This document shows, piece by piece, positions 6,355 through 29,449 of a stretch of DNA of 40,559 nt. The translations under genes and the position numbers were made by a program. Source of the stretch: a virus; the IMG/VR virus record IMGVR_UViG_3300044956_001016, positions 1-40,559 of that record. One strand, given 5' to 3'. A model generated the notes under the pieces. That model was not told the DNA's origin and did not search any database. It saw only the letters and a program-made list of their open reading frames with translations. How positions within the stretch are numbered: position 1 is the first letter of the stretch; every line of letters starts with the position of its first letter.

Positions 6355-6414
6355 ATGATACATACAACAACGCAGTTTTGTCTACCCCAAGCATTTAAGG
6401 GGGCAGGCAAATGA
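6355..6414 (+). CDS. 19-codon leader peptide overlapping the replication gene start
   Basis: ATG at 6355 opens a 19-residue reading frame (MIHTTTQFCLPQAFKGAGK) whose TGA overlaps the ATG of the next gene as ATGA at 6411-6414. The junction GGGGGCAGG supplies a ribosome-binding site for the downstream gene. This looks like a translational-coupling leader; it is too short to claim a protein function. Confidence 0.4.
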   Translation: MIHTTTQFCLPQAFKGAGK

Positions 6415-7193
6415 TAGGCAATCGACCAGATAGGGGCGCGTTCATTCCAGCGTGTCTCGACGATTATCCTCTAAACCCAAATGAGTTCAGGGTTTACGCT
6501 CACATCATGCGACGAGCCGGAACCCGTACGGGCACTCACTACGAATCAGTCCCTAACACAGCGAAGTGCTGCCGCATGAACGCCAAAACAGCGCGTAACG
6601 CTATCAAGATCCTAAAGGCGCTGCGCTTGATCGTGGTCCACGAACGAGCAGGTCAGTCCAGTGAAATCGAACCAACTCACGAGGATGATTGGGCACCTGC
6701 AGATCATGTTGAAGAGATCAGGAATCACACATTAAAAACCCCTACCAAATCAGGTAGGGGTACCAAATCAGGTACTACCAAATCAGGTAGGGGTACCCCT
6801 ACCAAATCAGGTACCCCCCCCCTACCAAATCAGGTAGGCCTACCCCTACCAAATTTGGTAGACAAAGGTACTCCCTTAAAGGTACTCCCAGAAGGTACCC
6901 CCCTTAAGGTTCCGAGAGATGGCACGGAAGCAATGTTTTTTAGCTTCCCTTGGAAGGAATCAGGAAAGGTTGATCCTGGCTTTATTGAATGGCTATCTGA
7001 GCAGATGAGCACAGATGGCAGGATGCACCCAAAAACAATGGCAAGGAATCACCTACTGAATTGTGAAAGAGCTTGCGAATTTGAAAAGCTCACGGGCTAT
7101 TGGGACGATTACCTATCAAGTCAAAGCCCTGGACAGGATAAAGCCCCTGAGAAAACCGCCTACGAAATCATTCAAGCGAGGAAACGGAGATGA
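6411..7193 (+). CDS. Replication initiator, phage O-like, with winged-helix N-terminus and internal iterons
   Basis: A 260-residue protein. Residues about 20-85 form a winged helix-turn-helix typical of lambda O/DnaD-like initiators: NPNEFRVYAHIMRR, then TAKCCRMNAKTARNAIKIL and a wing. Residues about 110-150 are a low-complexity Thr/Lys/Ser/Gly then Pro/Leu/Asn linker encoded by DNA iterons, the lambda O arrangement in which the origin sits inside the gene. The C-terminal about 70 residues (FFSFPWKESGKVDPGFIEWL onward) form a helical domain, perhaps for a helicase or loader. Start overlaps the leader stop (ATGA); the next gene overlaps its end likewise. Confidence 0.7.
   Translation: MIGNRPDRGAFIPACLDDYPLNPNEFRVYAHIMRRAGTRTGTHYESVPNTAKCCRMNAKTARNAIKILKALRLIVVHERAGQSSEIEPTHEDDWAPADHVEEIRNHTLKTPTKSGRGTKSGTTKSGRGTPTKSGTPPLPNQVGLPLPNLVDKGTPLKVLPEGTPLKVPRDGTEAMFFSFPWKESGKVDPGFIEWLSEQMSTDGRMHPKTMARNHLLNCERACEFEKLTGYWDDYLSSQSPGQDKAPEKTAYEIIQARKRR
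6743..6860 (+). repeat. Six iterons TACCAAATCAGGTA inside the initiator gene (putative origin)
   Basis: Copies start at 6743, 6761, 6776, 6800, 6823 and 6847, each 14 bp and ending GGTA; the last is the perfect palindrome TACCAAATTTGGTA. Spacings are 18, 15, 24, 23 and 24 bp. The 23-bp step, across a nine-C run at 6814-6822, moves the last two repeats into a different reading frame (TKSG becomes PNQVG), so the DNA rather than the peptide is conserved. This matches origins embedded in phage initiator genes. Confidence 0.75.
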
Positions 7194-11477: not shown

Positions 11478-11710
11478 GTTTGCGCCATTATATCGAGTGT
11501 TTCAGGGGTAAAGGAATCATGCGTTACAAATCAGTGTTTCAGCATGGACTACCAAAACGCTGCAAGCCTTGATAAATATAGGTTTCCCTTTGAATGGTTG
11601 CCTGTTCCGCAAATACTCAGATCCTATAACCCTTGATGAATAAAGCTTCTTAGTGTCGCATTTACAGCTTCGGACTAAATGTGGACTAACACTCTGTTTT
11701 GCAGCGAATT
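11478..11710. other. Intergenic region upstream of nblA
   Basis: No convincing gene lies here; a 67-codon minus-strand frame has no ribosome-binding site or family features. The region holds weak matches to the dispersed motif, GTGTTTCAGGGGTA (11497-11510) and GCGTTACAAATCAG (11521-11534). It must contain the nblA promoter, read on the minus strand, but I cannot place a clear -35/-10 pair. Confidence 0.4.
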
Positions 11711-11754
11711 GAGTAAACACTCACTCAATTACTCAATCATTTGAGTGCCCACTC
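11711..11754. promoter_or_regulatory. ACTC/GAGT tetramer boxes downstream of parA-parG (candidate centromere)
   Basis: Tetramers start at 11711 (GAGT), 11719, 11723 and 11731 (ACTC), 11743 (GAGT) and 11751 (ACTC). The steps, 8, 4, 8, 12 and 8, are all multiples of four. ParG of plasmid TP228 is known to bind ACTC tetramers separated by AT-rich four-base spacers, so this is a likely ParG-type binding array. It covers the last codons of the RHH gene. Confidence 0.65.
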
Positions 11755-11970
11755 AAGTAATTTTCTCACCAATTCACTCTTAGATGTGCGAAGTTCCCTC
11801 GCCTTGTCTGCCAGGGCATCGTTAAGGGCGATCGGAATATCCACGTTCAGTCTGATGGTTGCTTCTTTTTCTTCGGGTGCCAGCTCTGCCCACGGACCAG
11901 GCTTAGCCGATGGGGGCTGCTGGGTTGACTTGCCTGCGGCATTAAAGATGTCATCAAAGTCAGTTGCCAT
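11737..11970 (-). CDS. ParG-like ribbon-helix-helix centromere-binding protein
   Basis: A 77-residue partner of the ParA gene. It has a flexible Gln/Pro/Ser-rich N-terminal arm (about residues 12-30), then an RHH domain: strand ATIRLNVDIPIALNDAL and helix SELVRKLLEWAL. This is the ParG/type Ib partition pattern, in which the arm stimulates the ParA ATPase and the RHH domain binds the centromere and represses the operon. The ATG at 11968-11970 overlaps the parA stop by 11 bases. ACTC boxes on both sides match the known ParG site type. Confidence 0.78.
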   Translation of the reverse strand: MATDFDDIFNAAGKSTQQPPSAKPGPWAELAPEEKEATIRLNVDIPIALNDALADKARELRTSKSELVRKLLEWALK

Positions 11971-12535
11971 TGAGTTCCTTCCATATCGCCTGCCAATCGT
12001 GCCAAGCCACTCCCCTAACCGTTCTGCCTTCATCAGCCGCCTTGATGTATTCCTTGAATCGTCTGATCGGTCTGGAAAGCACGGGCAAACCATGTCGCTG
12101 TAACGCGGCGATCGCCTCCATGCCGTCACGTTGTGGAGGGGGAGGTGAAAGGGTAATCAAGCAAAAATAGTTGGTTCCTTCTGGTAGCGCTGTGGCAATC
12201 TGAATCAGCGCTGCCAGGGCTAACGGGTCAGGGCTGCTGGGGAGGATGAGCAAATCTGCTCCACGGGCGATCGCCTCAATCTCGTCAGGCTTAGGTCTGG
12301 CTTGGGTATCGATCACCGTATGCTGAAACTGTCCAGACATCAGTAGCCGGGGGGCTTCATTGTCAGAACAAACCTTGAAGGGGAGTAGCCCTTTACGCGC
12401 CCATAGGGTAAGTGATTTGTTTGGGTCGCTGTCGATAGCTAGGGTGTTGCCCTGCTGCTGCAGGAGAGTTGCAAGGCAAACAGCGCTAGTGGTTTTGCCT
12501 ACCCCTCCTTTGTATTGAATCAGGCTGATTATCAT
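11960..12535 (-). CDS. parA: ParA/ParF-type partition ATPase
   Basis: A 191-residue deviant Walker ATPase starting at MIISLIQYKGGVGKTT (Walker A' with the signature Lys at residues 9-16), DSDPN (35-39), and VIDTQARP (74-81) as Walker B, usually DTPP. The short length without an N-terminal HTH is the type Ib form (ParF), which needs a ParG partner; that is present. The ATG at 12533-12535 follows GAGGTGGGCA; an earlier ATG at 12557-12559 would add eight residues. It should segregate the replicon, implying an extrachromosomal plasmid state. Confidence 0.9.
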   Translation of the reverse strand: MIISLIQYKGGVGKTTSAVCLATLLQQQGNTLAIDSDPNKSLTLWARKGLLPFKVCSDNEAPRLLMSGQFQHTVIDTQARPKPDEIEAIARGADLLILPSSPDPLALAALIQIATALPEGTNYFCLITLSPPPPQRDGMEAIAALQRHGLPVLSRPIRRFKEYIKAADEGRTVRGVAWHDWQAIWKELNGN

Positions 12536-12596
12536 TGCCCACCTCACCTCATGGGGCAATCATAGGGTGAGCGCGATCGCAAGGCAATGAATGATT

Positions 12597-12644
12597 AAGT
12601 GAGTGAGTAATTGAGTAATTACTCAAGCTATCAATAAAGAGAGT
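12597..12644. promoter_or_regulatory. GAGT/ACTC boxes upstream of parA (candidate operator/centromere)
   Basis: GAGT starts at 12601, 12605, 12613 and 12641, ACTC at 12621, and a degenerate AAGT at 12597; all are in one 4-bp register. AATT fills the spacers at 12609-12612 and 12617-12620. This lies about 60 bp before the parA start, where ParG-type proteins autoregulate. Confidence 0.65.
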
Positions 12645-12692
12645 GATGCGTTACAAATAAGCCCCACATCCGAAGACATGGGGCCGATGGTT

Positions 12693-12760
12693 GTGATGTG
12701 GTGTAGCGTGTGGTGCCGTGAAGTGTGGTGATGTGCCGTGTCGTGTCGTGTCGTGACGTG
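12693..12760. repeat. Pentamer array A: GTG at every fifth base
   Basis: GTG occurs at 12693, 12698, and each five bases on to 12758, 14 positions with one GTA (12703). The two other bases vary (TCGTG, CCGTG, ATGTG and so on). On the minus strand the unit is CACNN. Strict period without a fixed full pentamer means the triplet is selected rather than a simple slippage repeat. The segment just left of it (12661-12684, GCCCCA/TGGGGC) can pair as a weak hairpin. Confidence 0.8.
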
Positions 12761-12764
12761 AGGT

Positions 12765-12800
12765 TTAACTGCTATCCATAAAACCTCTAATAAAGATGTG
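12765..12800 (-). repeat. Leader module 1: RBS, ATG and 4-codon frame
   Basis: Read on the minus strand: CACATCTTTATTAGAGGTTTT, then ATGGATAGCAGTTAA (12765-12779), coding MDSS and a stop. AGAGG gives a Shine-Dalgarno at normal distance. The same leader occurs at 12891-12926, and in shortened form at 12992-13006. It closely resembles the start of the 13012-13530 gene (GAGAGGTTTTATG). Probably a partial duplication of that gene's start; whether it is translated is unknown. Confidence 0.55.
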
Positions 12801-12890
12801 TTGTGTTGTCGAGTCGCGTGTTGTGTAGTCTTATCGCGTGCTGTGATGTGTCGTGCTGTGCAGTGCTGTGATGTGATGCGGCGTGATGTT
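12798..12890. repeat. Pentamer array B
   Basis: Nineteen consecutive five-base steps from 12798 to 12888. Most are GTG; GTC, ATC and GCG replace it in the more degenerate middle and end. It is in register with array A across the intervening leader (40 bases, eight steps). A plus-strand 65-codon Cys/Val frame here is an artefact of the repeat. Confidence 0.75.
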
Positions 12891-12926
12891 TTAACCGCTA
12901 TTCATAAAACCTCCAATAAAGATGTG
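12891..12926 (-). repeat. Leader module 2: RBS, ATG and 4-codon frame
   Basis: Minus strand: CACATCTTTATTGGAGGTTTT then ATGAATAGCGGTTAA (12891-12905), coding MNSG and a stop. GGAGG is an excellent Shine-Dalgarno. It differs from module 1 at only a few bases, including the compensated-looking AGAGG/GGAGG change that keeps the ribosome site. Confidence 0.55.
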
Positions 12927-12991
12927 TTGTGTTGTGATGTGTCGTGTAGTGCTGTGTCGTGGTGTGACGTGAAGTCTTGTGATGTGAAGTT
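12924..12991. repeat. Pentamer array C
   Basis: GTG (or GTC/GTT at the end) begins every fifth base from 12924 to 12989, 14 steps. It is one base out of register with array B. On the minus strand it lies just after the 13012-13530 gene, whose stop is followed by GTTTC and a third mini-frame, ATGAATAGCAATTAA (12992-13006), coding MNSN. Confidence 0.75.
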
Positions 12992-13011
12992 TTAATTGCT
13001 ATTCATGAAAC

Positions 13012-13530
13012 CTAACCAAACCCTTTTAAGCTATCCAAAATCTTCTCTTTATCCAGTTGCTTTGTTGCGTCCGACGATGACACAATTTGCTTTCTTAATG
13101 CCCGTTGTGAGCGAGGATCGGTAAGACTTTCCATGACGTGTAGGTTGGTAATCCCTAGCGTATAGGTGATCTGTTCCGAGGGGCTAAGCTCGGTAGGGTT
13201 TACCGCTTCTAGCTTGTTTCTAAACCTTTTGGCGTTACTTTTTAGTTTTGCCACATGCTTTCGGTTGGCGGTTGAAGGAATTTCGCCATGATGAAGCCTG
13301 CGGTACCCGGCATTGATTTCGTTCTCGAAAACCATGCCATACTCGTTTTCCAGAATCTTTTTGGCCGATTGTATATAGCCATAACTTTTGGTTTTGGTTA
13401 GCTGTGTGATTTCCAATATTTGGTCGTAACTGAATAGCTGTCCTTCCTCAACTTGCCGCATTGCCTCTACCAGCTCGGTAGTGATTACATGGCGACGACC
13501 TAAAGCAGATGGGTTGATTTCTGGTTGCAT
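13012..13530 (-). CDS. Helix-turn-helix-like protein flanked by pentamer arrays (unknown function)
   Basis: A 172-residue basic protein starting MQPEINPSALGRRHVITTEL. LFSYDQILEITQLTKTKSYG followed by IQSAKKILENEYGMVF resembles a winged helix with a wing at GYRRLHHGEIP; a second basic helical half follows. ATG 13528-13530 has GAGAGG before it; a longer frame to 13632 would only translate the pentamer array (His/Asp/Thr repeats) and is rejected. The fold and location suggest it binds the arrays or acts in plasmid replication, but this is inference. It follows the 13637-14257 gene on the same strand. Confidence 0.6.
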   Translation of the reverse strand: MQPEINPSALGRRHVITTELVEAMRQVEEGQLFSYDQILEITQLTKTKSYGYIQSAKKILENEYGMVFENEINAGYRRLHHGEIPSTANRKHVAKLKSNAKRFRNKLEAVNPTELSPSEQITYTLGITNLHVMESLTDPRSQRALRKQIVSSSDATKQLDKEKILDSLKGFG

Positions 13531-13556
13531 AAAACCTCTCGCCAAAGCGAATGGAT

Positions 13557-13623
13557 GTGTTGTGCTGTGTTGTGACGTGCCGTGTCGTGTCGTGTCGTAC
13601 TGTGTCGTGTCGTGAGTGTCGTG
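13557..13623. repeat. Pentamer array D, in front of the 13012-13530 gene
   Basis: GTG every five bases from 13557 to 13612 (12 steps, one GTA at 13597), then one irregular step. On the minus strand CACNN units run from just after the stop of the upstream gene to about 25 bases before the start codon of the 13012-13530 gene. This array therefore occupies the intercistronic leader. Confidence 0.8.
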
Positions 13624-13636
13624 CAAAAACACTTAG

Positions 13637-14257
13637 TTACGCGGCTAGCGAAACCTCATCCTGCCAGTCAAGCACTCTATGTTGGTAACGGCCCCAAATA
13701 CCCCGATTACGAACACGGAAGGCACCAATACCGATAAAGTTGCCTGCGGCTCTTAAGTGTTCCTCGAAAACATCTCTAACAATCGTGTCATCAATAATTG
13801 TGTAGTGCACCTCTGCAAACCAAGGCTCTTCAATCAGCGGAAACATTCGATGTACCCGTTTACCGCTTCCGGGTGTGCCATCCGCTGAACAAAAAATCGT
13901 CCTTCCTTTATAAGGAGATCCCTCTTCATCAAGCATTGACTTATTGATAATCGTGCCGTCTGCGGTTTTGATGACAGGTGAATCCAGTACCAAGACACCC
14001 GACTCGAAATGTTTGCGGTAGGTGCTTTTCCCTTTACCGGGGATTTGCTTGGATAGATATTTAGCGGCTTCAGCCAAGCTGCTCTTTAGCGCCAACGCCG
14101 GAATCTCAATATTTCCGCTGCGATCCCAGTGTGCCTTGTTAGGCCATGTACGGGTTTCGTAGGCTTCTGGGCCTTCCTTATTCAGTCTTTCAATGCCGTG
14201 GAATCGTGACTGGCAGTAAGGTGCTAGTCCCTCTATCTGAATTAATGCAGTTCTCAT
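13637..14257 (-). CDS. Conserved phage protein of unknown function with Gly/Arg-rich C-terminal motif
   Basis: A 206-residue protein from ATG 14255-14257 (MRTALIQIEGLAPYCQSRFH). It resembles a widespread phage family of unknown role: YETRTW near residue 35, IPALALKSSLAEAAKYLS, and QIPGKGKSTYRKHFESGV. The ending FIGIGAFRVRNRGIWGRY has the look of the glycine-rich loop of RAMP/Cas7-like folds, but this is only a resemblance. An upstream TTG at 14332 would add a doubtful hydrophobic leader. It is transcribed toward the pentamer locus. Confidence 0.6.
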   Translation of the reverse strand: MRTALIQIEGLAPYCQSRFHGIERLNKEGPEAYETRTWPNKAHWDRSGNIEIPALALKSSLAEAAKYLSKQIPGKGKSTYRKHFESGVLVLDSPVIKTADGTIINKSMLDEEGSPYKGRTIFCSADGTPGSGKRVHRMFPLIEEPWFAEVHYTIIDDTIVRDVFEEHLRAAGNFIGIGAFRVRNRGIWGRYQHRVLDWQDEVSLAA

Positions 14258-14549: not shown

Positions 14550-15167
14550 ATGGCACGATTAGAACTAAATTTCTTCGACGGAAATCAGCACGGAAATCAC
14601 TCGCGTATTTTAGATACTGACTGTTACCCGATTGGGCATGAATGGCTTGTGGGGCGGGTTACAGATATAAGCAAACCCGACATTTCACTTAAACACGATA
14701 CTGTATCAAGATCTCAGGCTTTTATCAGGTGTATCACGCAATATCAACGTGAACAATGGCAAATCAAACATGTGGGACGCAATCCCACGTATCGACAAAT
14801 GGGCAAGACAGGTAAAACCCAATTGGCGCTTGAATATTGGACAAATATTCATGACGACGATGTGTTCACTTTCGGATTCGGTAATGAAGGTTTTAGGGCG
14901 ACCACCGCAATTGACGAAACCCTTCAGGAAGATTGCATGATCGACGAAACCCCCACTGTTAACGAAACTATCAACGCGGCGATCGCTCAGCACACAGCCG
15001 CCCTGCAGGAGGCTGAGGCAGCAGCAAAAAAGTCCAGTGATCGCCCCTGGTATGCAGAGCTTGTTTTACTGGTGTTAAACGGGCCTGAAGGTTTTCCTAA
15101 TTGGCTCTGGTGGTTGTTTCTGCTTGCGTCAGTGCTGCTGTATGTGATTCTCAAGTATGGCGGTTAG
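14550..15167 (+). CDS. FHA-domain protein with C-terminal membrane anchor
   Basis: A 205-residue protein. Residues about 30-90 match a forkhead-associated domain: WLVGR (33-36 region), VSRSQAFIR (52-60; the usual His after SR is Gln here), and GRNPTYRQMG (76-85). FHA domains bind phosphothreonine. A charged Ala/Glu linker (about 145-165) leads to a hydrophobic C-terminal helix (LWWLFLLASVLLYVILKY), so the domain should face the cytoplasm from the membrane. GGGGGA lies before the ATG. The EAL gene follows three bases after its stop, so the two form an operon. Confidence 0.75.
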   Translation: MARLELNFFDGNQHGNHSRILDTDCYPIGHEWLVGRVTDISKPDISLKHDTVSRSQAFIRCITQYQREQWQIKHVGRNPTYRQMGKTGKTQLALEYWTNIHDDDVFTFGFGNEGFRATTAIDETLQEDCMIDETPTVNETINAAIAQHTAALQEAEAAAKKSSDRPWYAELVLLVLNGPEGFPNWLWWLFLLASVLLYVILKYGG

Positions 15168-15169
15168 CG

Positions 15170-15940
15170 ATGACTCACGACGCTTGCCCCTACCCGCAAT
15201 GTCCACACGAAACTGCAGCCCGTTTAGACCAGTTGTACTGGCAGGAACAGGTTAAGTCAGCGATCGCAGAGGATCGGATTGTGCTGAAATATCAACGCAT
15301 CCTGAAACGGCACCGCAGGGAGAACTGGGAAGTTTTAGCCCGGATCAAACAGCCAGACGGGAGCTTGTTGCCCGCTAAATTTTGGATTGACGCGGTTAAT
15401 GCCGATCCAGGATTAAGCGCTCGTTTGGATTGGTTTGTGGCGGAAAAGGCGCTGAAAGCGGGTATTGAACCCTGGGCAAAAAACTGGATCAACTTCACGA
15501 CCACCACACTGAGAAGCCCCGATTTTCAAGATAAGATCTTGGCTTTGACTACTACTTACAAGGTCACACCCAGTCAGATCTGCATTGAAGTCACAGAACA
15601 GGGAGCGCATAACGGGATAGCCGAAGCCTTGGGCGGGTTGCGTGAGATGGGATTCTTGATTGCTATTGACGATGTTGGGGCAGGCCATAGTAACCTAAAC
15701 GCGATCGCTCAGTTCCCTGCGACGCATATCAAAATTGATGGGGCGCTGTGCATTGAATGGCAGAACCACAAGACCGCAATCGTCTTGCAATCTGTGATTA
15801 AGCTAGGGCGTGAACTGAAATGCGGCGTGATTGCAGAGTGGATTGAATCAGCAGAACAATTTGAAAAATTCTGGGAATGGGGTGTGACAGGTATGCAGGG
15901 ATTCTTTATTGATAACTATAAAAAAACCCCTACTCAGTAG
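15170..15940 (+). CDS. EAL-domain c-di-GMP phosphodiesterase (stand-alone)
   Basis: A 256-residue protein that is almost entirely one EAL domain. The usual metal and substrate residues are in place: E54 (EVL for EAL), N108 (WINFT), E140 and E143 (IEVTE), D167-D168 (IDDVGAG), K188 (IKID), E223 (AEWIE) and Q243 (GMQGF). EAL enzymes cut cyclic-di-GMP to pGpG, so it could lower host c-di-GMP and shift motility or biofilm state. There is no GGDEF, PAS or other sensor. A Cys-containing N-terminus (CPYPQCPHE) precedes it. A bidirectional terminator overlaps its last codons. Confidence 0.85.
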   Translation: MTHDACPYPQCPHETAARLDQLYWQEQVKSAIAEDRIVLKYQRILKRHRRENWEVLARIKQPDGSLLPAKFWIDAVNADPGLSARLDWFVAEKALKAGIEPWAKNWINFTTTTLRSPDFQDKILALTTTYKVTPSQICIEVTEQGAHNGIAEALGGLREMGFLIAIDDVGAGHSNLNAIAQFPATHIKIDGALCIEWQNHKTAIVLQSVIKLGRELKCGVIAEWIESAEQFEKFWEWGVTGMQGFFIDNYKKTPTQ

Positions 15941-27820: not shown

Positions 27821-29449
27821 TCATCGTTGATATGCTATTCCTTCCCCACTCGTTAGGGTAATAGATGTAACCGTTTTGTATCCCGATAAAAAACTATTTC
27901 CACTAGCGATCGTGAAATTGTCCCACTCAGATGCTACTACGTTATCAATTGACAGAGAGGCGATTACTAAAGGTGCGCTGCCAACGTTGTCAATCCGCCA
28001 AAATCGCCCAGTGATAGCGGAAGTGCCCGTCAATTTTACTAGTGTACTGTTTGGGCTTACCGCGACTATTTGCTCTGTCTCAAATGGCTGAAATTCAACT
28101 ATCGCCCGTGTGTTTCGATCATAAGTTGCAGTATCGAAAACGATATCTTGAGATGCCTGAGTTCTAACAGAACTGGCTAAAGATCCATAGGTCGGGCGCG
28201 GGTTTGCTGTTCCGTCTGGACCTTGGAACCAGCTAAAAATTTCACTGGTTAACCCTGAGGTGATCGGATCTGTCTCTGACAAACTAAAAGCCGTGCCGTG
28301 ACTAATTGCGGCATAGCCCAAGATCAGATCCCCTGGTGTCCCTGTTTTAGTTTCAGTTTGTGCGTTGGCATTAACCCAGTGTGAAGCACTAAAACTATTT
28401 GCTCGATAGTTCTTGAATCCAACCAAAGGTCTAATAATGAGGCAGGGTAGATTACCAGCAGGAGCAAAGGATGCGCTCACATTGATATCAATAATCCCCT
28501 CCCTGTTAGGAGGAAAGTTATCACTGGTCAAATGAAATACGAAAGTGTCAACACCACCAGTATTGTCAGTAGCCGTTACATCAGTAGACCTGCCTAGCTC
28601 TGTCAGATTTACACCGCCCCAGGTCACTGAAGAGATATCTCGTGAGGTTCCGGTATCCCAAGCATTAAAAGACAAGAAAAACACTACGGCATCAGCATTA
28701 GCCGGAGCTTTGTACCATCCGTGTGTGTAGCTGCTGGCAGTAACCGCAGCAGTGAAAGTTGATGCTTTAAATGTCCCTTCACTGATTTTTAGACCGTTAG
28801 ATAAACGAGGGGCAAAAACAACATTACCCATTAGCCGACGCACAGAGTTTGCTCCGCTGAATGTCGTTGTGAGTGTCTCGTTTGATCCGTACCGATAGCC
28901 TGCGGCCCCCGTGTAGCCATCCGCAACAGCTTTTGCTTGAACAACTGTTTCACCTGTTGCAAAGACAGCATTGGCAATAGTGTCCTCTGCGACAATCGTA
29001 GAGAAAACAAACCCTGATATGAAGTGCATATTTTGGGTTAGAGATGTTGCACCGTTAGTAACTTGTCTGGCGTTTTGAATTGGTACAAAATCATCATCAA
29101 AAGCTGTTACTTGACACACTCCAGGCCGACTCAGGTTTGAACTACTCGGCCCTCCAGTAATGGTGAGAGTACCCGTATAACTGCCGTCAATTTGCTCTGA
29201 GGACAGACACCAGATAGGAGCGGATAGAGTAACAATGTTGGCGTAATGGGCAGACAGACATTCTGTAAATTGCTTTGTGTCTAACTGTACGTTCGCGACG
29301 CAGTTGTTTGTGACAGCGCTATTACGCCCTCCAATCAATGAAAAAACCAACAATTTTGTATTGACAGGAGACGTATAGCTAAACGTCATCGTACCGCCAG
29401 AGGCAGGAACGGCGGAAAAGGAATAAGTTGAGGTACTTAGAGCGACCAT
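27821..29449 (-). CDS. Fibre/decoration protein, paralogue of the 24077-26512 product
   Basis: A 542-residue protein. Residues 1-455 align throughout with the large fibre (shared segments include TKLLVFSL, TKQFTECL, VCQVTAFDDDFVPI and VTWGGV-LTELGRST). The last 70 residues instead match the separate 29481-29747 protein: GRFWRIDN, LVIASLSIDNV and SITLTSGEGIAYQR. So a common base carries exchangeable C-terminal modules. Probably a trimeric surface protein; receptor binding by the C-terminus is inference. Confidence 0.65.
   Translation of the reverse strand: MVALSTSTYSFSAVPASGGTMTFSYTSPVNTKLLVFSLIGGRNSAVTNNCVANVQLDTKQFTECLSAHYANIVTLSAPIWCLSSEQIDGSYTGTLTITGGPSSSNLSRPGVCQVTAFDDDFVPIQNARQVTNGATSLTQNMHFISGFVFSTIVAEDTIANAVFATGETVVQAKAVADGYTGAAGYRYGSNETLTTTFSGANSVRRLMGNVVFAPRLSNGLKISEGTFKASTFTAAVTASSYTHGWYKAPANADAVVFFLSFNAWDTGTSRDISSVTWGGVNLTELGRSTDVTATDNTGGVDTFVFHLTSDNFPPNREGIIDINVSASFAPAGNLPCLIIRPLVGFKNYRANSFSASHWVNANAQTETKTGTPGDLILGYAAISHGTAFSLSETDPITSGLTSEIFSWFQGPDGTANPRPTYGSLASSVRTQASQDIVFDTATYDRNTRAIVEFQPFETEQIVAVSPNSTLVKLTGTSAITGRFWRIDNVGSAPLVIASLSIDNVVASEWDNFTIASGNSFLSGYKTVTSITLTSGEGIAYQR

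Follow-up and report, generated by a model that had tools for sequence, protein, structure and literature searches.

The closest described systems are the VIPR systems, a virus-encoded relative of CRISPR that consists of phage-encoded RAMP proteins (Vipr), vap genes and vrRNAs (PMC13142463, a 2026 preprint). According to the text of this preprint, vrRNAs contain 9–16 GGY/NN repeats and their targets are read by the NN pairs with a 1-nt skip; each array is followed by a 3′ tail of conserved structure; seven types are published, every one with GGY/NN ‘or a related consensus’, a DNA-binding vap is found in types II, VI and VII, and overlapping vrRNAs are mentioned (PMC13142463). We located the likely VIPR locus of SUSP1 at 28031–29061, where GGY arrays lie on both sides; GGY arrays also adjoin the homologues in LESphi2 and Gordonia phage Pipp.

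The window analysed here is a whole stretch of 40,559 nucleotides of viral DNA from IMG/VR (record IMGVR_UViG_3300044956_001016). Portal, terminase and major head protein genes identify it as a tailed phage, and a cyanobacterial host is likely because the cyanobacterial HIP1 octamer GCGATCGC occurs in 51 copies where 0.6 are expected. Over 13.8 kb that take in the arrays described below, another contig (IMGVR_UViG_3300044997_001007) has 99.9% identity to the window. Iteron-like repeats (CTACCAAATCAGGTAG) at 6738–6861 lie inside a replication-initiator-like gene (6411–7193), which suggests plasmid-like replication of the virus. At 14550–15940 this phage carries an FHA-domain gene followed by an EAL-domain gene of the c-di-GMP phosphodiesterase type.

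We interpret the minus-strand region 12660–14257 as a VIPR-type system, carried by a tailed phage of cyanobacteria, in which CAC arrays are the guide RNAs, with a probability of about 0.88. The assignment is made because of the predicted RAMP fold of one protein, its profile homology to the Vipr of SUSP1 and the match of its neighbour to vap. The locus thus has a ∼20 kDa RAMP homologue in a phage, an adjoining vap homologue and intergenic pentanucleotide arrays with NN pairs in the sense orientation; we hold its membership of VIPR with high confidence and the 1-nt-skip reading rule with moderate-to-high confidence. As in the VIPR of SUSP1 and of a Pseudomonas fulva prophage (type II), a small RAMP gene and a DNA-binding-like vap occur together in a phage. 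Further features shared with the SUSP1-type systems are the homologous proteins, the intergenic pentanucleotide arrays (∼9–16 units with a constant triplet and a variable NN) and a layout with one array set apart and three in a row 3′ of the genes. The differences are CAC in place of GGY and the sequences of the spacers and tails, and the window system is known from sequence alone. An earlier, sequence-only reading of this DNA had named no described CACNN system; the VIPR preprint fits, although its text gives GGY/NN and not CAC (PMC13142463). The CAC dialect therefore differs from the stated GGY, and the list of related consensus sequences in fig. S17 of the preprint may already include it. 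No CRISPR repeats were seen at the locus, where the arrays are solely pentanucleotide, no cas families were found among the subset of window ORFs scanned, and Rfam had no match in the window.

The AlphaFold model of the candidate Vipr has a pLDDT of 93.4 and a pTM of 0.87, and its best 50 PDB entries are all Cas7/Csm3-type RAMPs of type III or VII (Z = 11.3–13.5). Comparison of its family alignment (28 rows) with an alignment of the SUSP1, LESphi2 and Pipp proteins using hhalign gave a probability of 99.1 and an E value of 4e-19; the identity to SUSP1 Vipr is low, at 17% in the profile alignment. The predicted fold and the glycine-rich loop are those of the Cas7/Csm3 backbone proteins of type III and VII CRISPR systems, but the identity to these is ∼6–16% and a triplet/NN array takes the place of the contiguous spacer as guide. 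The model of the candidate Vap has a pLDDT of 92, with many winged-helix domains among its PDB matches, and its family matches the vap of SUSP1 and LESphi2 (hhalign probability 96.7, E value 3e-10); no homologue of this protein and no similar DNA were found in the named phages and plasmids searched. The models suggest that the candidate Vipr, as a Csm3/Cas7-like RAMP, is likely to be the reader of the arrays and that the candidate Vap is a winged-helix-like accessory protein and a putative DNA binder. The multi-subunit nucleic acid-binding reader proposed earlier is plausible, and the RAMP, not the product now taken as Vap, is the likely holder of that role.

The arrays have CACNN on the minus strand (GTGNN on the plus strand) and a strict period of 5; all four are present at the coordinates given in the sequence-only reading. 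Of ∼58 units in our parse of the window 49 are exact, array B being the most degenerate of the four, and the longest exact runs in the arrays are 11, 10, 8 and 8 units. When the window was shuffled 100 times under a first-order Markov model, the longest run was 3, and the four arrays are accordingly real, as had been claimed. Periods of 4, 6–9, 11 and 12 gave no run of ≥6 anywhere in the window, and matches at period 10 are these same arrays. Reading along the minus strand, the order is vipr, array D, vap, arrays C, B and A and the terminator. The vap gene and the CAC triplets are both on the minus strand, so that the arrays lie on the coding strand of this gene, again as had been claimed. Array D is intergenic and abuts the ribosome-binding site of the candidate vap gene, while arrays A–C form a single block 3′ of it with related spacers between them. 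The two spacers belong to one repeat family (77%); the B–A spacer folds well, the C–B spacer folds weakly (z = 0.3) and array A ends in the terminator, a strong hairpin (−18.8 kcal/mol, z = −4.74). Between a mini-ORF (MNSG-stop) and a hairpin as readings of the inter-array spacer, we prefer the hairpin.

Table 1. Features of the candidate VIPR locus, in minus-strand order.
Feature	Position	Strand	Description	NN pairs
Candidate vipr gene	13637–14257	−	206 aa, ATG at 14257; RAMP with glycine-rich loop GIGAFR	
Array D, candidate vrRNA	13557–13616	−	12 units, 11 exact CAC	GA GA AG GA GA GA GG GT AA AG AA AT
Candidate vap gene	13012–13530	−	172 aa; predicted winged-helix-like N-terminus and helical C-terminus	
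Array C, candidate vrRNA	12924–12991	−	14 units, 12 exact	AT AA TT GT AC GA AG TA GA AT AA AA AT
Spacer between arrays C and B	12891–12923	−	CTTTATTGGAGGTTTTATGAATAGCGGTTAAAAC	
Array B, candidate vrRNA	12798–12890	−	18 units, 13 exact; degenerate	GC AT AT AG TG AG GA AT AG GC AA TA AA GC TC AA AA AT
Spacer between arrays B and A	12763–12797	−	Hairpin GAGGTTT..AAACCTC; −9.3 kcal/mol, z = −2.95	
Array A, candidate vrRNA	12693–12762	−	14 units, 13 exact	GT GA GA GA GG AT CA TT GG CA GC AC AT AA
Intrinsic terminator ending the vipr–vap–array block	12660–12685	−	11 pairs followed by a T-rich tail	

Runs of eight exact units were searched for in IMG/VR, which gave 114 stretches. In the loci read, the arrays cluster around one or two genes of ∼190 and ∼165 codons, on either side and in the gap between them, with CAC in the sense of the gene; 45 ORFs of the ∼190-codon family and up to 38 of the ∼165-codon family are homologues of the window genes, counts that include the window's own ORFs and some duplicates. 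The gene pair with CACNN arrays recurs in dozens of IMG/VR viral contigs. The test named by the sequence-only reading, whether the period-5 triplet is kept near homologues of the vap gene in other genomes, thus came out positive. A set of RAMP homologues was also collected independently of arrays (14 from GTDB genomes and the best 80 of 233 in IMG/VR). Period-5 arrays lie close to the vipr homologue in 80 of the 95 loci (window included) and in none of 102 control segments (p = 3e-40), and they read in the same sense as vipr. Many loci hold several arrays separated by constant 16–17-nt linkers, the core of which is TTTTCC or TTTCC, and this gives them the appearance of multi-guide arrays; loci of this kind are L028, L032, L055, L084, L088, L103 and L105, where as many as twelve guides follow one another (L088). 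Some guides in these loci differ so little that they could be directed at variants of a single target. Five loci (L029, L035, L053, L054 and L087) have very long CAC arrays of ∼24–53 units, and NN words recur within or between some of these, perhaps like the overlapping vrRNAs that the preprint mentions (PMC13142463). The cyanobacterium Iningainema tapete (L128) has a vipr that is 48% identical to that of the window, with no clear period-5 array nearby; a viral record (L143) is near-identical to this locus, and the array there may have been lost or belong to a more degenerate dialect.

Conservation of the triplet alone, in one orientation and beside one gene family (80/95 loci versus 0/102 controls), argues against a drifted simple repeat without function, as do the constant linkers in many loci and the fit of the NNs to codon positions 1 and 2 that is described below. 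Such drift would explain the low complexity of the sequence, the degenerate array B and the variation in array number between loci, and we regard it as the most improbable of the explanations weighed here. That the arrays are no slippage repeat had been argued in the sequence-only reading, on the same ground that the triplet alone is kept.

The triplets found beside homologous vipr genes are GGC, CGC, CAC, CTC, GAC and GTT, all with C or G as the first base and a pyrimidine as the last; CAC is found in few of the array-independent set. Mapped on a tree of 117 proteins, the triplets require 21 changes, compared with at least 49 in 100 label shuffles, and their first base requires 8, compared with at least 21. 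Residue 179 (window numbering), which adjoins the invariant glycines of the G-loop, covaries with the triplet. It is nearly always Arg in the GGC, CGC, CTC, GAC and GTT systems; the CAC systems have Gln (19), Arg (13) or Ala (3), with Ala in the window. Residues 123–124, 137, 41 and 185 covary with the first base of the triplet. When specificity residues were analysed by independent contrasts, the best was residue 179 against CAC/CGC, with 3.4 of 4 pairs concordant (p = 0.125–0.25); the association between residues and triplets is a lead only, because phylogenetic correction leaves too few independent pairs. CAC units are present as variants inside CGC arrays, and no NN string is shared across dialects. 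In three loci (L160, L181 and L201) a single vipr gene is accompanied by CGC as well as CAC arrays, and these loci are possible intermediates of a dialect switch. We propose, tentatively, that the dialects (S-N-Y plus NN: GGC/GGT, CGC, CAC, CTC, GAC and GTT) and candidate RNA-contacting residues such as residue 179 change in step along the Vipr tree and that the guide pools of rivals would be mutually unreadable; the Vipr of one phage would therefore be unable to load the guides of its rival.

The reading code was analysed in the sister CGC dialect with three guides from Paracoccus litorisediminis (L134), which were decoded at skip 1 and searched in 125 Paracoccus genomes. Exact matches to guide 1 (22 fixed bases) number several dozen in these genomes, whereas its reversed control has scattered matches within three mismatches only. 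The one match checked is in a serine integrase gene at VDVVVVYKIDR, to which the guide is antisense. Guide 2 (20 bases) has exact matches in two genomes, compared with ∼0.001 expected by arithmetic, and the one match checked is in a large terminase gene at DPLIERVTLV, with the guide in the sense orientation. Guide 3 matches this integrase gene as well, with 2–3 mismatches and at a distance of 210 bp from the sites of guide 1. In the checked target genes the skipped base is the wobble base, and controls at skip 2 (guide 1) and skip 0 (guide 2) gave nothing better than three mismatches. A serine integrase of the L134 genome itself (G002:C45:183394) matches guide 1 with two mismatches and is a possible near-self target.

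The NNs of 126 CAC guides were compared with codon positions 1 and 2 of the coding DNA of their own loci, giving an LLR of +35.1. Letter-shuffled guides gave −21.8 (sd 7.0), with none of 200 reaching the observed value, and the fit to codon positions 3 and 1 is poor (−120.7). CGC and GGC guides show the same behaviour. A signature of codon positions 1 and 2 is what the reading of one pair per codon, with a 1-nt skip, would leave; the test is a composition signal that supports the skip rule and is proof of no single target. Codon-phase orientation within the CAC guides has no coherence beyond that of a within-locus shuffle. The selection of the triplet inferred in the sequence-only reading stands; its view that the other two bases vary freely does not, as the homology and the CGC-dialect targets indicate that the NNs are the guide.

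No convincing target was found for any CAC guide in the genomes and IMG/VR scans covered here. A search with 140 CAC guides against 1.1 Mb of collected loci gave no signal at any skip, and a rescan with 287 guides and a larger set returned mainly sites that had been collected earlier by pattern, the skip-3 counts being self-matches at the edges of masked arrays. Guides A and C have only three-mismatch, chance-level matches in 291 cyanobacterial genomes. Exact nine-unit matches to guide A were found in ten contigs, mostly in one tail-fibre-like family (DGDEGIQLGHATF), where they are in frame with the wobble base skipped; the best match, in a tail-fibre-like gene at L235:4584, agrees in 25 of 28 letters and is within chance for a collection of that size. 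We treat the tail-fibre match as a hint, since one family gives nearly all of the matches and the other guides give about one chance event per scan. Three other CAC guides have 0, 2 and 1 exact nine-unit matches in IMG/VR, which is background; the guides of L114, L015, L084/L017 and L011 are at background level there. A candidate site for guide 1 of the CAC locus L129 (Methylococcaceae), just upstream of a metallophosphatase gene, has a single mismatch in 22 letters (∼0.006 expected by arithmetic). It was set aside; the sequence is of low complexity and three-mismatch matches are not in excess of the reversed control. Guide 2 of L129 has no target match.

The lack of a direct CAC-guide target in these scans would be accounted for if the locus were a relative of VIPR whose CAC guides follow another reading rule, or whose target is RNA rather than DNA. 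We consider this unlikely: the codon-position signature has the period-3 register expected from a 1-nt skip, CAC units lie within CGC arrays, loci with mixed CGC and CAC arrays exist, and the CGC guides obey skip 1.

In the centromeres of type Ib plasmid partition systems, repeats precede a ParA gene that has an RHH-like neighbour. On this model the arrays would be direct-repeat DNA sites bound by an RHH protein beside ParA, and the segregation array suggested in the sequence-only reading does suit the neighbourhood: the arrays are directly upstream of a ParA gene (11960–12559) and of a small RHH protein (11737–12000), the RHH matches of which are weak, and arrays A–C sit where a type Ib centromere would. 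The virus, with its replication-initiator-like gene, may also be a plasmid prophage. In other genomes, however, the repeats follow vipr and not parA; they adjoin vipr/vap homologues in unrelated contigs, and the triplet follows the phylogeny of Vipr in the comparison with shuffled labels given above. Clusters of TGAGT/ACTCA at 11710–11755 and 12600–12625, which flank parA and the RHH gene, are a better candidate and are likely to be a centromere or operator. A centromeric role of the CAC arrays is thus very unlikely.

In the leader sites of TRAP (Bacillus trp RNA-binding attenuation protein), triplets recur at regular intervals, with about two variable bases separating them. This geometry resembles that of the arrays and had been offered as their precedent, in which case a protein ring on CACNN runs in the leader of the vap mRNA would control expression. 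We reject the precedent and judge such regulation to be less probable still than a centromere. The conserved adjacent protein has a predicted RAMP fold, three of the arrays are 3′ of the last gene and ahead of the terminator, and the NN bases carry coding-like information that a leader site does not need; no TRAP family was found among the ORFs scanned near the arrays. Autoregulation by Vipr of its own transcript is possible, because array D ends at the ribosome-binding site of vap.

In the VIPR-type system that we prefer, vipr, array D, vap, arrays C, B and A and the terminator would probably form one transcript. Vipr subunits would line up on the vrRNA, probably one per five bases, gripping CAC and leaving the NN pairs free. 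The chain of NN pairs would recognize double-stranded DNA and pass over a single base between successive pairs, in most cases the wobble position of the target gene. Transcription of that gene would be blocked, with Vap probably helping at the DNA, and the targets would most likely be genes of competing phages or prophages. For expression, one subunit per unit, DNA binding and repression we draw on the VIPR preprint (PMC13142463) and on homology; the architecture, the predicted RAMP fold, the Vipr and Vap homology, the dialects, the CGC targets and the codon-like NNs of the CAC guides were computed here.

These results add a CAC/NN dialect to a recently described family of RNA-guided, CRISPR-related systems and tie one protein family to at least six triplets. 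They also lend the 1-nt-skip code independent computational support beyond the laboratory-tested GGY systems, in that two guides of a CGC system have exact targets in phage genes and the controls at other skips fail. The switches of triplet along the protein tree are natural comparisons for studying guide recognition by RAMPs, and orthogonal dialects would be of use as tools. With this locus, a VIPR-type system is extended to a phage that is likely to be cyanobacterial.
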